From Altererythrobacter sp. B11 (GTDB lineage: Bacteria > Pseudomonadota > Alphaproteobacteria > Sphingomonadales > Sphingomonadaceae), in the NCBI RefSeq assembly GCF_003569745.1, contig NZ_AP018498.1:1215001-1279000 (forward strand): DNA of 64,000 nt, read 5' to 3'. The first letter of the stretch is position 1. Each line of letters begins with the position of its first letter. Made by a program: the position numbers and the translations under genes. Under the pieces are notes generated by a model that saw nothing but the letters and a program-made list of their open reading frames with translations, made no database searches and was not told the DNA's origin. Positions 9,124 to 15,860 of the stretch are shown here, piece after piece.

Positions 9124-10515
9124 ATGAGTGCGACGCGGATCGAAAGCGACACCATGGGGCAGATCGCTGTCCCGGCGGACCGCCTGTGGGGCGCGCAGAC
9201 GCAGCGATCGCTGGAGAACTTCCGCATCGGTGAAGAGCGTATGCCCCGGCCCATCATCCGCGCCCTGGGCACGATCAAGCGCGCGGCCGCACTGGCCAAT
9301 CGCCATCTCGGCCTGCTCGATCCGCGGCTGGAAGAGGCGATCGTCGCGGCGGCGGATGAGGTGATCTCCGGCGATCTGGACGAGGAGTTTCCCCTGGTCG
9401 TGTGGCAGACCGGATCGGGCACCCAAAGCAACATGAACGCCAATGAAGTGATCGCCAACCGCGCCAATCTGGCGCTGGGCGGGGAACTGGGGACGAAATC
9501 GCCCGTGCACCCCAACGATCACGTCAATATGAGCCAATCCTCCAACGACACCTTTCCCACGGCCATCCATGTCGCGGCCGCCATGGAAGTGGTGCATCAT
9601 CTCGTGCCGGCGCTGGCGGCCATGCGCGACGAGCTGGCCAGCAAGGCTGCCGCGTGGAACGGCATCGTAAAGATCGGCCGCACCCATACGCAGGATGCCA
9701 CACCGCTGACGCTGGGGCAGGAGTTTTCCGGCTATGCTCGGCAGGTCGCCGCGGGGATCGAGCGGATCGAGCTGACGCTGCCCGGCCTGTGCCAGCTGGC
9801 GCAGGGCGGCACCGCAGTGGGCACGGGGCTGAACGCGCCGAAGGGCTTTGCCGAGGAAGTGGCGGCCCGCATCGCCGATGCCACCGGCCTGCCCTTCGTT
9901 ACCGCACCCAACAAGTTCGAAGCGCTGGCGGGGCAGGATGCGTTGCTGTTCTGCCACGGCGCGATCAACGCGCTGGCTGCCGCGCTCTACAAGATCGCCA
10001 ATGACATCCGGCTGCTCGGGTCCGGCCCGCGCTCCGGCCTCGGCGAGCTCGCCCTGCCGGAGAACGAACCCGGCAGCTCGATAATGCCGGGCAAGGTGAA
10101 TCCCACCCAGTGCGAAGCGATGACGCAGGTCTGCGCGCAGATATTCGGCAATCACGCCGCGCTGACCTTTGCTGACAGCCAGGGGCAGTTCGAGCTCAAT
10201 GTCTATCGCCCGGTCATGGCGTACAACTTCCTCCAGTCGGTGCGGTTGATGGGCGATGCTGCGCGCAGCTTCACCGCCAATCTGTTGCAGGGGCTGGAGC
10301 CGCGTAAAGACAACATTGCCCGGGGCGTCGCCAATTCGCTGATGCTGGTGACGGCGCTGGCGCCGGAGATCGGCTATGACCGCGCGGCCGCGATCGCGAA
10401 GAATGCGCATAAGCAGGGCATCACGCTGCGCGAAGCCGCCGTCGCCAGCGGGCATGTGACCGAGGAGGATTACGACCGGATCGTCCGTCCGGAAGACATG
10501 ATCGGGCCGGGCTGA
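9124..10515 (+). CDS. fumC: Fumarate hydratase class II
   Basis: Cytosolic, iron-independent fumarase interconverting fumarate and L-malate in the TCA cycle. The 463 residues match FumC length. The fumarase/aspartase superfamily signature [15 protein letters not shown] is intact, and the upstream active-site segments [14 protein letters not shown] and [16 protein letters not shown] are present. The start ATG at 9124 follows a purine-rich AGAAGGGGACGAGCG. It appears monocistronic: the gene before it is the efflux channel, and the gene after it has its own control region. Confidence 0.97.
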
Positions 10516-10572: not shown

Positions 10573-10601
10573 TTGTCATAAGTCTGCAGCAAATCTGTCG
10601 C
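10573..10601 (+). promoter_or_regulatory. Candidate Pho box (three 11-bp-spaced PhoB half-sites)
   Basis: Three heptamers resembling the PhoB half-site CTGTCAT lie exactly 11 bases apart: TTGTCAT (10573), CTGCAGC (10584) and CTGTCGC (10595), separated by AAGT and AAAT. The spacing and the A/T spacers are the hallmark of PhoB-bound direct repeats. The element is 58-86 bases upstream of the start of a receptor-phytase-phosphatase operon, which is what phosphate-starvation control would predict. Match is imperfect in the middle half-site. Confidence 0.6.
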
Positions 10602-10624
10602 GGCAGCTTCATCACCCCACCATA

Positions 10625-10656
10625 GGGGCGCTCCATCTTTGGATGGAGGGCACCCC
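10625..10656 (+). promoter_or_regulatory. Hairpin sequestering the ribosome site of the receptor gene
   Basis: GGGGCGCTCCATC (10625-10637) can pair with GATGGAGGGCACCCC (10642-10656) around a 4-base loop. The 7-base core CTCCATC/GATGGAG is perfect. The Shine-Dalgarno GGAGGG at 10645-10650 lies inside the right arm, 8 bases before the ATG, so the fold would limit translation start of the TonB receptor. Confidence 0.45.
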
Positions 10657-10658
10657 GG

Positions 10659-13463
10659 ATGAAACTGAACCGCTTGCTGCTTGCGAGCAGCGCATTTGCT
10701 GGCGCGCTTGTTACCACCCCCGCTCTGGCGGGCGATGTGATCGGCGTGGTCGTGGACGATACCGACACCGTGGCGCTGGAATCCGCCAACATCCGCGTGG
10801 TGGAACTGAACCGCGCCACGACCAGCGAGCGTGACGGCAGCTTCCGCTTTCCCGATCTTCCGGCCGGCACTTACACGCTGGAAGCGAGCTATGTGGGGGC
10901 CGAGCCGCAGATCCTGACCGTCGACGTGCCGGAGAAAGGCGCCGTGCGCGCCGATTTCGCGCTGGGCGGTGTCGGCAGCGCGCCGGCCATTCTGGTTGTC
11001 GGCCAGACGGCCAACCAGGCCAGCGCCCTCTCCAGCAAGCGCGCCGGTGACGGCGTCAGCGACGTGCTGACGCGCGACGCGGTGGGCCAGTTTCCCGATC
11101 AGAACGTGGCGGAATCGCTGCGCCGCCTGCCCGGCATCAACGTGCTGAACGATCAGGGCGAGGGCCGGTTCGTCTCCGTCCGCGGCCTCGATCCCGAACT
11201 TAACGCCACCTCGCTGAACGGCGTGCGCGTTCCGGCGCCGGAGAGCGATGTCCGCTCGGTCGCGCTGGACGTGATTTCCTCCGAACTCATCGATTCGGTG
11301 GTGGTGAAGAAGTCGCTGACGCCGGACATGGACGCCGACACGATCGGCGCCTCCATCGAGATCAAGACGACGAGCGCGCTCGACCGGGTAAAGCCGCTTT
11401 ACAAGGCCAAGCTGGAAGGCAGCTACAATGACTATTCCGGGGATGTGACGCCGAAGGGCAGCGTGGATATTTCCACGCGGCTGGGCGACGATGTCGGCGT
11501 TTCGGCGGGCGTGTCCTTCTACCAGCGCAAGTTCGAGACGGATAACAGCGAGTCCGAGGATTGGGGCCTCACCGACGACGGCGTCCTCTATGCGGAAAAG
11601 CTTGAATATCGGGACTATGACGTGGAGCGGAAGCGCTTCAACGCGTCGCTCGGCTTCGACTTCCGGGCCGGTGACACGACGACGCTCTTCGCGCGCGGCA
11701 TCTACAGCCAGTTCGACGATCACGAATATCGCCGCCGCCTGACCTTCGACCTGGGCGATGCGGCCGATCCCACCGGCACCATGACCTCCGCCACCTTCTC
11801 GGCGGCCGATCTGGATGCCGATGACGAGGAAGAGATCGTGATCGAGCGCGACCTGAAGGATCGCCTCGAAAGCCAGAAGATCCGCTCCATCGTGCTGGGT
11901 GGCGACACCGATGCCGGCCCATGGAAGGCGGACTACTCGGTCAGCTGGTCTAAATCGAGCGAGCGTGAGAACGGCTCTATCGATCCGGCGGGCTATGCCC
12001 GGTCCTACGAAAGCGGCGACGATTTCGGTGTGACCTTCGATTACAGCGATCCGCGTTTCACCACCTATTCGATCACCTCGGGCGCGGCTGGGTTCAACGA
12101 TCCGTCGGAATATGAATTCGACAAGCTGGAACGCACGACGCTGAGCGATGCCACCGACGAGGAGTGGGCGGTCAAGGCCGACATCAGCCGCCTGTTCGCG
12201 GGCGATGGCGGTGACTTCACGATCCAGGCGGGCGGCAAGATCCGCTGGCGCACCAAGCAGTATGACGCCAATATCGACGTGTTCGAAGCGGCCGATGATC
12301 TTACCATGGCCGATGGGGACATCCTCGGCGAACAGACCTATCGCCTGGCGGATCTGGGGCCGGTGATCGCCAAGAAGGATGTGTGGAAGGACTTCTTCTA
12401 CGCCAACCAAGATCTGTTCGAACTGGACGATGGCGACACTTTCGAAGGCAGCAATGCCTCCGATTATCGCGCCGACGAGGATATCTATGCCGCCTATCTG
12501 CTCGGGCGCTGGGATTCCGATACGCTGCGCGTGATCGGCGGCGTGCGCATGGAGCACACCGAGAACAAGCTGACCGGCTACCTCACCGACCTCGACGAGG
12601 AAGAGGTGGTCGCGCTCAACTACGACCGCAGCTACACCGACTGGCTGCCGAGCCTGACGATCCGCTATTCGCCGACGCCGGACCTGATCTTCCGCGCCGC
12701 CGGTTCGAAGAGCCTCGTGCGGCCCAAGCTCTCCAATCTCGCCCCGCGCGCCTTGGTGGAGGACGAGGAGCTGGAAACCGGCAATCCGGAACTCGAGCCC
12801 TATGAGGCCTGGAACCTCGACCTCGCGGCCGAATATTACTTCTCCAGCACCGGCGGCATCACGGCGGGCTTCTTCTACAAGGACGTGAAGAACTACGTCG
12901 CTGAAGTGCAGCGCGAGGAGGACGGTGTTCTCGGTGGCAAGGAATATAGCCAGATCACGACCTTCGTGAATGGCGAGAGCGCCGAGATCTATGGCTTCGA
13001 GGCGAGCTACAGCCAGTCCTACACCTTCCTGCCGGCGCCCTTCGACGGGCTGCTGACGCAGCTCAACTACACCTACACCGATGCCACCGGCACCGTGTTC
13101 GAGGATGGCGATATTGGCGATCCGCGCGACATTCCGCTGCCCTCCGCCTCCAAGCACACGCTCAACGCGGTGCTGGGTTATGAGAAGGGGCCGCTCAGCC
13201 TGCGCGCCGCCGGTACCTATCGGTCGAAATATCTCGACGAACTGGGCGGCGAGGCGGAAGAGGATCGCTATGTCGACAATCACTTCCAGCTCGACCTGTC
13301 GGCCAAGTACCGCGTGACTCCGCAGGTTCAGCTGTTCGCGGAGTGGATCAACGTGAACAACGCCAAATACTATGCCTATCAGAACTTCGAAGGCGGCAAC
13401 CGCCTGCTGCAGTATGAAGAATATGGGCCGACCGTGAAATTCGGCGCGAATGTGACCTTCTGA
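10659..13463 (+). CDS. TonB-dependent receptor with N-terminal carboxypeptidase-regulatory-like domain
   Basis: Outer-membrane active transporter of 934 residues. A signal peptide (MKLNRLLLASSAFAGALVTT) is followed by a carboxypeptidase-regulatory-like Ig fold (about residues 26-80, ending DGSFRFPDLPAGTYTLEASY). Next come a plug domain (QFPDQNVAESLRRLPGINV) and a beta-barrel ending in TVKFGANVTF. The stop overlaps the start of a phytase gene, and a PhoX-like phosphatase follows. Import of phytate, inositol phosphates or other organophosphates is therefore the best guess. The start is fixed by GGAGGG at 10645. Confidence 0.92.
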   Translation: MKLNRLLLASSAFAGALVTTPALAGDVIGVVVDDTDTVALESANIRVVELNRATTSERDGSFRFPDLPAGTYTLEASYVGAEPQILTVDVPEKGAVRADFALGGVGSAPAILVVGQTANQASALSSKRAGDGVSDVLTRDAVGQFPDQNVAESLRRLPGINVLNDQGEGRFVSVRGLDPELNATSLNGVRVPAPESDVRSVALDVISSELIDSVVVKKSLTPDMDADTIGASIEIKTTSALDRVKPLYKAKLEGSYNDYSGDVTPKGSVDISTRLGDDVGVSAGVSFYQRKFETDNSESEDWGLTDDGVLYAEKLEYRDYDVERKRFNASLGFDFRAGDTTTLFARGIYSQFDDHEYRRRLTFDLGDAADPTGTMTSATFSAADLDADDEEEIVIERDLKDRLESQKIRSIVLGGDTDAGPWKADYSVSWSKSSERENGSIDPAGYARSYESGDDFGVTFDYSDPRFTTYSITSGAAGFNDPSEYEFDKLERTTLSDATDEEWAVKADISRLFAGDGGDFTIQAGGKIRWRTKQYDANIDVFEAADDLTMADGDILGEQTYRLADLGPVIAKKDVWKDFFYANQDLFELDDGDTFEGSNASDYRADEDIYAAYLLGRWDSDTLRVIGGVRMEHTENKLTGYLTDLDEEEVVALNYDRSYTDWLPSLTIRYSPTPDLIFRAAGSKSLVRPKLSNLAPRALVEDEELETGNPELEPYEAWNLDLAAEYYFSSTGGITAGFFYKDVKNYVAEVQREEDGVLGGKEYSQITTFVNGESAEIYGFEASYSQSYTFLPAPFDGLLTQLNYTYTDATGTVFEDGDIGDPRDIPLPSASKHTLNAVLGYEKGPLSLRAAGTYRSKYLDELGGEAEEDRYVDNHFQLDLSAKYRVTPQVQLFAEWINVNNAKYYAYQNFEGGNRLLQYEEYGPTVKFGANVTF

Positions 13464-14479
13464 TGCGCAGGATCGTCATGGCATCGGCGCTTGCGGCCTC
13501 GCTCGCCGCTTGCGCCGCCACTCCGCCGATCGCCGGTCTGCCGGCGGTCCCCGTCACCGCGTCCGGGGAGACGAAGCCCGTCGGCACCGCCAATGCCGAC
13601 GCGGCGGACGATCCCGCGATCTGGCGCAATCCCGCCGATCCGGCCGCCAGCTATATCGTGGCGACGGACAAGAAGGCGGGGCTGCAGGTCTATGACCTTG
13701 CCGGCAAGCTGGTCTTCGCCGAGGAATCGGGGCGGGTGAACAATGTCGATCTGGCCGATATGGGGCCGGACGGCGTGATCGTGGTCGCCAGCGACCGCAA
13801 CGACCTGGCCAATGCCCATCTGGTGATCTGGCGCCTGGACAAGGCCACGGGCCATCTGGCGCGGCTGGGCCGGGTGCCCGGCGGCACCGGCGAAGGCTAT
13901 GGGCTGTGCCTGTGGAAGGGGGCGGACGGGCTCTACGCCTTCTCCGTGCTGAAAGACGGGACGGTGGAGGAGTTCCTGCTCTCGCTCGGCAGCGAGCCGG
14001 CCTCGCGCATGGTGCGCAAGATGAAGGTGCCGACGCAGGCCGAAGGCTGCGTGGTCGATCCGCGTGACGGCACGCTCTATGTGGGCGAGGAAGATGCGGG
14101 CATCTGGCGCTTCGCCCCCGGCGAGACGGCGGGAACGGTTGTGGCCCCGGCCGACAACAAATATCTCGTCGCCGATGTGGAAGGGCTGGCGCTGCTGCCC
14201 GATGGCGCACGGGGCGGCTATCTGCTCGCCTCCAGCCAGGGCGATAACAGCTACGCCGTGTTCTCGCTGCCGGACGTCGCGCCGATCGGCCGCTTCCGGA
14301 TCGCCGCCGGCACATTCGGCGCGACCGAAGAGACCGACGGCATCGAAGTGATGGGAGGCAGCTTCGGGCCGGAATATCCCGAAGGTCTGTTCGTGGCGCA
14401 GGATGGGCACAACGCCCCGCAGGCACAGAACTTCAAGCTGGTTTCGTGGAAAGCGATCAGGGAAGCGCTCGGCCTGTGA
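13463..14479 (+). CDS. Beta-propeller phytase-like lipoprotein
   Basis: Predicted extracytoplasmic, Ca-dependent 3-phytase releasing phosphate from phytate. The 338-residue protein begins with a lipoprotein signal (lipobox LAAC, Cys17). The mature part opens TANADAADDPAIWRNPADP and continues with a repeated propeller pattern (YIVATDKKAGLQVYDLAGK, GCVVDPRDGTLYVGEEDAGIW, EGLALLPDG). These are the characteristic segments of the beta-propeller phytase family. The ATG overlaps the TGA of the TonB receptor gene (ATGA), so the two products are made together. A neighbouring phosphatase supports phosphate scavenging. Confidence 0.9.
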   Translation: MRRIVMASALAASLAACAATPPIAGLPAVPVTASGETKPVGTANADAADDPAIWRNPADPAASYIVATDKKAGLQVYDLAGKLVFAEESGRVNNVDLADMGPDGVIVVASDRNDLANAHLVIWRLDKATGHLARLGRVPGGTGEGYGLCLWKGADGLYAFSVLKDGTVEEFLLSLGSEPASRMVRKMKVPTQAEGCVVDPRDGTLYVGEEDAGIWRFAPGETAGTVVAPADNKYLVADVEGLALLPDGARGGYLLASSQGDNSYAVFSLPDVAPIGRFRIAAGTFGATEETDGIEVMGGSFGPEYPEGLFVAQDGHNAPQAQNFKLVSWKAIREALGL

Positions 14480-14549
14480 TCCTGTCGTAGCCGCGGCCTT
14501 GGCTTTGGCGCGCGGCCGTGCTTGGAAAGGGAGCAGAGGAGAAGCGCCC

Positions 14550-15860
14550 ATGTTCACTGACCGCCGTCGTTTCCTGCGTGCCACCGGCAGCGCCTTCGCC
14601 GCGCTGGCGGCCAGCAGCTGCATGCGCGAAGGGATCGCGAGCACCGCACCGGGCGGCTTCAGCTATGGCCCCTTGCAGCCCGATCCGGCCGGTCTCGTCG
14701 ATCTGCCGGCGGGCTTTTCCTATCGCATCATCTCCAAGCTGGGCGATGCGATGGACGATGGCGCCACCGTGCCGGATCGGGCGGACGGCATGGGCTGCTT
14801 CGATCTGGGCGGGGGCCGCATCGCGCTGGTGCGCAACCATGAATTGCAGGCCAAGCATGACAGCGGCGGGGCCCATGGCCCGGCCTATGACACGGTGGCA
14901 CGCAGCCTGGTCCCGCTGCCGGGCGGCACCACCACCGTGGTGCTGGACGCGGCGACGCTGGCGGTGGAGCGGCAGTTCCGTTCGCTGAACGGCACGATTC
15001 GCAATTGTGCCGGCGGCACCACGCCCTGGGGCAGCTGGCTGACCTGCGAGGAAGATCTCTCCACGCCTAACGGCCGGATCAACAAGGTCCATGGCTGGGT
15101 GTTCGAAGTGCCCGCCGCCGCCACCGGCCCGGTGGACCCGGTACCGCTGAAGGCCATGGGCCGCTTCAACCACGAGGCGGCCTGCGTCGATCCGGCAACC
15201 GGCATCGTCTACATGACGGAAGATCGCGGTGATGGCCTGCTGTATCGCTTCATCCCCACGCATCCGGGCCAGCTGGCACAGGGTGGTGTGCTGCAGGCGC
15301 TGTCGATCCCCGGCGTGCCCGATGCGCGCAACTGGGATGCGCCCGCCGTTGCGGTGGGCGAATGGCAGGGTGCGCGGTGGGTCACGCTGAGCGATGTCGA
15401 AGCGCCGGAAGATGATCTGCGCCAGCGGGGCGCTGCCGCCGGGGCGACCGTGTTCGCACGGGGCGAGGGCATCCACATGGGCGAAGGGGAGCTGTATTTC
15501 TGCTGCACCAATGGCGGTGCGGCCCAGCTGGGGCAGATCTTCCGCCTCGCGCCGCGCAAACATGGCGCGGATGGGCTGCAGCTGTTCTTCGAAAGCGCCA
15601 GCCGCGAACAGTTCAACTATGGCGACAATCTCACCGTGGCGCCGAACGGCCATCTGATCGTGTGCGAGGATCAATATACCGATCTGGTGGAGAACCACCT
15701 GCGCGGCATCACGCCAGAGGGCACGGCCTACACGCTGGCCTTCCTGCACGACCAGACCGAGTGGGCCGGCGCCTGCTTCTCGCCCGACGGCAAGACGCTG
15801 TTCGTCAACCTCTACAGTCCGGCGCGCACGCTGGCGATCACCGGCCCGTGGACCGTATAG
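14550..15860 (+). CDS. PhoX-like phosphatase (DUF839), Tat-exported
   Basis: Predicted exported alkaline phosphatase or phosphodiesterase of the PhoX/DUF839 family, 436 residues. The start at 14550 is chosen because AGAGGAG lies just upstream and the product then begins with a twin-arginine signal RRRFLRA (residues 5-11), followed by SSC at 22-24 that could be lipidated. Family segments include LPAGFSYRIISKLG, RNHEL, NCAGGTTPWGSWLTCEE, GRFNHEAACVDP, VYMTEDRGDGLLYRF and a C-terminal AGACFSPDGKTLFVN. PhoX enzymes use Ca and Fe in the periplasm. It follows the phytase by 70 bases on the same strand, so it probably belongs to the phosphate operon. Confidence 0.88.
   Translation: MFTDRRRFLRATGSAFAALAASSCMREGIASTAPGGFSYGPLQPDPAGLVDLPAGFSYRIISKLGDAMDDGATVPDRADGMGCFDLGGGRIALVRNHELQAKHDSGGAHGPAYDTVARSLVPLPGGTTTVVLDAATLAVERQFRSLNGTIRNCAGGTTPWGSWLTCEEDLSTPNGRINKVHGWVFEVPAAATGPVDPVPLKAMGRFNHEAACVDPATGIVYMTEDRGDGLLYRFIPTHPGQLAQGGVLQALSIPGVPDARNWDAPAVAVGEWQGARWVTLSDVEAPEDDLRQRGAAAGATVFARGEGIHMGEGELYFCCTNGGAAQLGQIFRLAPRKHGADGLQLFFESASREQFNYGDNLTVAPNGHLIVCEDQYTDLVENHLRGITPEGTAYTLAFLHDQTEWAGACFSPDGKTLFVNLYSPARTLAITGPWTV

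Follow-up and report, generated by a model that had tools for sequence, protein, structure and literature searches.

The window, the whole 64-kb stretch of DNA analysed here (G000:C1:1215001-1279000), comes from a complete genome of 3.84 Mb and carries, in this order, genes for a class II fumarase, a TonB-dependent receptor (TBDR), a beta-propeller phytase, a PhoX-like phosphatase and a methyltransferase (Table 1). The initial annotation had described the receptor, phytase and phosphatase genes as consecutive between 10573 and 15860, with the first two overlapping, and this description holds: the stop codon of the receptor gene and the start codon of the phytase gene share a single base (TGATG), and a gap of 70 bp with no overlap separates the phytase gene from the PhoX-like gene. 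Start codons were set by rule. For the third gene, the start at 14403 of the mechanically derived open reading frame was dropped for the one in Table 1, because the latter yields a Tat-type signal that is also present in relatives.

Table 1. Coordinates of features at the locus and at related loci, with a short remark on each.
Feature	Position	Strand	Remark
Class II fumarase gene	9124-10515		
Pho box, four heptamers 11 bp apart	10573..10612	+	matrix scan, orthologue conservation, anchored profile
Putative -10 element CCATAG	10620..10625	+	aligned with CCTAG of relatives; presumed promoter role
Leader hairpin CTCCATC-tttg-GATGGAG	10631..10648	+	leader fold; perfect 7-bp stem
TBDR gene	10659-13463	+	934 aa; Pfam and NCBIfam
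Beta-propeller phytase gene	13463-14479	+	338 aa; lipoprotein signal (LAAC)
PhoX-like phosphatase gene, short form	14550-15860	+	436 aa, from ATG 14550
Receptor and purple acid phosphatase genes	L222:2024-6429, L223:4703-8907		phytase-less genomes
Phosphatase-flanked receptors near the clade	L347:8880-10445, L346:2130-3239, L344:8143-9624, L345:3778-5250		
Exported inorganic pyrophosphatase genes	L070:3593-4189, L120:5001-5549		PF00719, signal peptide; just after receptor
Phosphate-selective porin gene	L241:2580-3797		PF07396; directly upstream of pstS

The phytase matched PF02333 with 226 bits over residues 19-337, which is most of the protein, and could be aligned over its full length with the Bacillus phytase 1poo (E 2.4e-58). 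All ten residues that we take to form the active and metal sites of the Bacillus enzyme (D55, D56, K76, R122, Y159, K179, E211, E227, D258 and E260) are kept, as D49, D50, K70, R112, Y146, K164, E194, E210, D238 and E240. The gene occurs in a single copy in this genome, its nearest relatives are from Erythrobacteraceae-type sphingomonads, and at least 76 of 89 relatives carry a lipobox. Double-domain phytases, with two PF02333 domains in one open frame of 668-709 aa, occur in some relatives (L002-L006), and none of the genomes encoding them is among those with an orthologue of the receptor. The PhoX-like protein scored 275 bits against PF05787 (cut-off 24) and matched PhoX 4amf with an E-value of 2.9e-14; it is shorter than the solved PhoX, with the NC..G.TPWG and HE motifs aligned, and both the Cys of NCxxGxTPWG and the Glu of the HE motif are invariant among its relatives. 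Its signal consists of a Tat-type RRRFLR followed by a cysteine. One further, longer PhoX gene lies elsewhere in the genome, and no Pho box was seen for that gene.

The receptor scored 602 bits over plug and barrel against TIGR01782, the Xanthomonas-Caulobacter type of TBDR (cut-off 310). A CarboxypepD_reg domain precedes the plug and barrel at the N-terminus; searches with Pfam and NCBIfam profiles found no STN signalling domain of the kind carried by FecA-type signal transducers. An AlphaFold2 model (pLDDT 88, pTM 0.85) matched solved TBDRs in Foldseek, for example PhuR 8the (E 6.7e-33), and predicts an ordinary TBDR fold with a plug inside a barrel of 22 strands, as counted from the secondary structure. 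Among orthologues, there are 47 columns in which 90% or more of the residues are basic, and R318, R402 and R823 are kept in the phytase-linked clades and rare in controls. A candidate phosphate-binding signature, striking when the receptor was set against four paralogues from its own genome, was lost in a comparison with 40 control receptors, in which basic barrel residues were not specifically enriched in the phytase-linked clades (3 of 15, versus 6 of 17 for acidic residues). Because acidic columns behave like basic ones we make no claim for a phosphate pocket, and because the basic residues show no specific retention it is from gene linkage and regulation alone that the cargo is argued below.

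Orthologues of the receptor, defined by E <= 1e-200 among 249 genomes of the family, were present in 59 genomes, the phytase in 113 and both in 57. Phytase was found in 57 of the 59 genomes with the receptor versus 56 of the 190 without it (Fisher p 7e-22), a p-value that overstates the significance, as all such counts overstate independence, because related genomes share ancestry. The receptor gene lies directly upstream of the phytase gene in 47 genomes, and the one-base overlap recurs in 37 of 45 measured pairs. Across the class, seven sampled genomes encode a protein related to the receptor (E <= 1e-120), all of them within the 14 of 289 genomes that have the phytase, and the two genes are neighbours in all seven (one pair is divergent). 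Gene anatomy and this linkage across relatives support the operon structure and the coupling of receptor and phytase that had been proposed from the window.

In 58 of 59 clusters, the receptor gene is immediately followed by at least one gene for a secreted phosphatase; since the search for neighbours relied on similarity to a small set of representative proteins, other phosphatases may have been missed. In the exception (G052), a fragmented assembly, no phosphatase gene lies directly downstream and the phytase gene is on another contig. The identity of the partner varies from cluster to cluster. In nine genomes, the receptor and the phytase are separated by one or two genes, whose products are a purple acid phosphatase, an exported inorganic pyrophosphatase, or both; in two others (G149 and G194) a purple acid phosphatase gene comes after the receptor gene, with no phytase in the genome. 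The PhoX gene is an optional member, found in third place in 9 of 59 clusters. The site next to the receptor is an unusual location for an inorganic pyrophosphatase gene (Table 1).

A tree of 110 receptors placed the window receptor in a clade with other phytase-linked receptors (support 1.0), with a second set of phytase-linked receptors as its sister clade. The nearest relatives of both clades adjoin a purple acid phosphatase, PhoD or a Y_phosphatase3 enzyme of the tyrosine-phosphatase type, which suggests that a larger set of phosphatase-linked TBDRs surrounds the receptor clade. The flanks (∼1.5 kb) of 19 control TBDRs held none of the phosphatase families tested. One member of the first clade breaks the rule and adjoins peptidase genes (L304/L343).

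Upstream of the receptor gene, the heptamers TTGTCAT (10573), CTGCAGC (10584) and CTGTCGC (10595) recur with a period of exactly 11 bp, separated by AT-rich spacers of 4 bp (aagt and aaat). The outer two match CTGTCAY at 6 of 7 positions and the middle one is a poor match (4 of 7); a fourth, weaker heptamer, GCTTCAT, stands in the same register at 10606. The initial annotation had noted three CTGTCAT-like heptamers 11 bases apart and suggested a scan with a PhoB matrix. Under a matrix that was drawn up by hand on the model of the E. coli-type Pho box and left untuned thereafter, the array scored 34.0 and was the best three-unit site on both strands of the window (runner-up independent site, 29.5). 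Against dinucleotide-shuffled versions of the 160 bp that precede the receptor gene, its p-value was ∼3e-4, which is somewhat optimistic because the matrix was set after the window site had been seen; results for relatives are unaffected by this. A genome-wide scan with a two-unit pattern (up to 3 mismatches) returned 253 matches versus 140 for the reversed pattern and was for this reason dropped as too loose. Scans of the region for sigma-70 promoters and terminators gave no excess over shuffles.

It had also been proposed that the upstream regions of orthologous operons be compared, with a lack of the 11-bp repeats counting against Pho-box control, and the repeats proved to be conserved upstream of nearly all orthologues. 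In 42 orthologue upstream regions, the best array score exceeded that of shuffles by a mean z of 28, and a period of 11 was the sole optimum among periods of 8-14; at 53 of 58 loci, when the 160-bp stretches of the locus were ranked, the upstream region came within the top 5%. In many orthologues, a CTAG or ATAG element stands between the array and the start codon. Counted from where the best array begins, its distance is 38, 49 or 60 bp, and 34 of 37 such distances share one phase modulo 11. When 43 regions were anchored on CCTAG, heptamer scores peaked solely at 16, 27, 38 and 49 bp upstream (means 9.7, 7.9, 10.0 and 9.4; median 4.9). Because this profile has four peaks, we describe the conserved array as one of four units, one more than had been recognized in the window. 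The region thus has the feature by which PhoB-regulated promoters are judged, direct repeats with an 11-bp period (CTGTCAY and 4 further bases) set at a fixed distance from a putative -10 element, and the geometry of the repeats and the -10-like element is as expected of a PhoB-activated promoter, which argues, at the level of sequence, for Pho-box control. Outside the family, the box was clear at one locus (L249), fair at a second (L250) and weak at a third (L248), and none was seen at two others (L251 and L252).

The genome also encodes phoB (344 bits, above the curated cut-off), and its pstS gene is preceded by the same kind of box, TTGTCAGattaTTGTCGCaagaCCGTAAC, 76 bp before the start. A two-unit Pho-box-like site precedes the porin gene that adjoins pstS (Table 1).

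Given these results, we consider it likely that the locus is a PhoB-activated operon through which phytate serves as a source of phosphorus. Under phosphate limitation, phosphorylated PhoB would bind the four-heptamer Pho box and, judging from the site, its phase and the presence of phoB, would recruit RNA polymerase to a promoter just downstream. The one-base overlap would couple translation of the phytase to that of the receptor. Gene linkage suggests that the receptor would bind phytate, or a complex of phytate with metal, on the surface of the cell and, with energy from TonB, bring it into the periplasm, where the phytase lipoprotein would strip off phosphates and the exported PhoX-like enzyme, where present, would dephosphorylate the remaining monoesters. 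Free phosphate would then enter via the Pst system. Because the receptor is the constant part of the cluster and its phosphatase partner varies, linkage indicates that the cargo is probably an organic phosphate. Intact phytate, perhaps metal-bound, is the most likely candidate, since it is large, highly charged and cut by an envelope lipoprotein.

The pairing of a TBDR with a phytase is already known, and the locus is a further example of it, with better evidence. The initial annotation had regarded the receptor as the novel part; the same association and the same substrate proposal, however, had already been published (PMC3400609, PMC8115612, PMC11208175). In Citromicrobium bathyomarinum JL354, a TBDR adjoins the phytase gene and phytic acid was proposed as its substrate in 2012 (PMC3400609). 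The two loci are alike in the adjacency of a TBDR and a phytase gene in related sphingomonads (PMC3400609), but the sections of the JL354 account that deal with this pair, unlike the present work, include no analysis of a Pho box, operon or conservation (PMC3400609). In Flavobacterium johnsoniae, which likewise pairs a TBDR with a phytase but belongs to another phylum, both Fjoh_1367 (phytase) and Fjoh_1368 (TBDR) are strongly induced by phosphate depletion, and uptake of organic phosphorus has been proposed for the pair (PMC8115612). The PhoB regulon of Caulobacter crescentus, an alphaproteobacterium, includes several TBDRs and a phytase, and here the likeness lies in regulon content (PMC11208175). 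An experimentally shown phytate TBDR was not found in the literature searched, in which few subscription journals were covered. The present work adds to this a conserved promoter geometry, figures for the linkage and the observation that phosphatases are exchanged around a single receptor clade.

In that exchange the locus resembles the PusCD system of Bacteroidetes, in which an outer-membrane TBDR is likewise coupled to varying phosphatases under phosphate control, but the receptor is of the TIGR01782 type and not a SusC, and no SusD-like lipoprotein gene was found beside it, the adjacent genes being those for the fumarase, phytase, PhoX and methyltransferase. We put forward tentatively, at a little short of an even chance, that the receptor belongs to a widespread clade of outer-membrane transporters dedicated to organic phosphates, in which the partner phosphatase is freely exchanged and which is a proteobacterial counterpart of Pus that lacks the SusD-like lipoprotein.

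The cargo may be broader than phytate, because G149 and G194 have the receptor without a phytase, and the exchange of phosphatases makes a broader organic-phosphate receptor quite possible. In its strongest form, the receptor would be a general importer of organic phosphates (phosphoesters or pyrophosphate) and the adjacent phosphatase would reflect the substrates that each species meets, a reading to which we give appreciable but lesser credence. It accounts for the occurrence of one receptor clade before a purple acid phosphatase, an exported pyrophosphatase, a phytase or combinations of these, and it draws as well on the other phosphatases adjoining neighbouring clades and on the control flanks lacking these families. 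Phytase, however, accompanies the receptor far more often than any other partner, in all but two of the receptor genomes, which favours phytate.

A different division of labour is rather unlikely, namely that the phytase acts on the outside of the cell, with import by the receptor limited to the lower inositol phosphates or inositol released there. The phytase is a predicted lipoprotein, and some lipoproteins of its kind are surface-exposed. In Flavobacterium, moreover, the phytase is predicted at the outer membrane (PMC8115612). But there is no direct sign of surface exposure at this locus, and free phosphate and inositol could pass through porins, such as the phosphate-selective one whose gene adjoins pstS. 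We consider it improbable that what the receptor imports is a metal chelate, such as iron-phytate used as a source of metal, or an unrelated ligand, with the phytase simply co-expressed. Metal chelates are the classical ligands of TBDRs, and the PDB entries closest in fold are receptors for heme and siderophores, yet a Pho box lies upstream and the linkage to phosphatases is strict. Finally, that the heptamers arose upstream of the receptor gene by chance, as the poor middle unit and the many matches to the two-unit pattern might suggest, is contradicted by their conservation, unique period, phase with CCTAG and counterpart at pstS, and we regard it as highly improbable.

Among the forms of organic phosphorus in soils, phytate is a major one. 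Because the control site and the partner enzymes are widely conserved, the cargo of the receptor can be put to the test: under the proposed phytate-use operon, a receptor clade whose cargo is predictable from phosphatase linkage and a Pho box offers a gene set testable in culturable sphingomonads and could serve as a marker for phytate use in metagenomes.

The leader of the operon contains a further feature, a hairpin that sits just before the receptor start and includes the likely ribosome-binding sequence (Table 1). Leaders of orthologues fold more stably (mean z of -1.21) than two sets of controls (-0.48 and -0.32). The stem sequences differ among these leaders, 28 of 39 of which have a paired ribosome site. 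It is possible that the hairpin contributes to translational control or to protection of the 5′ end.
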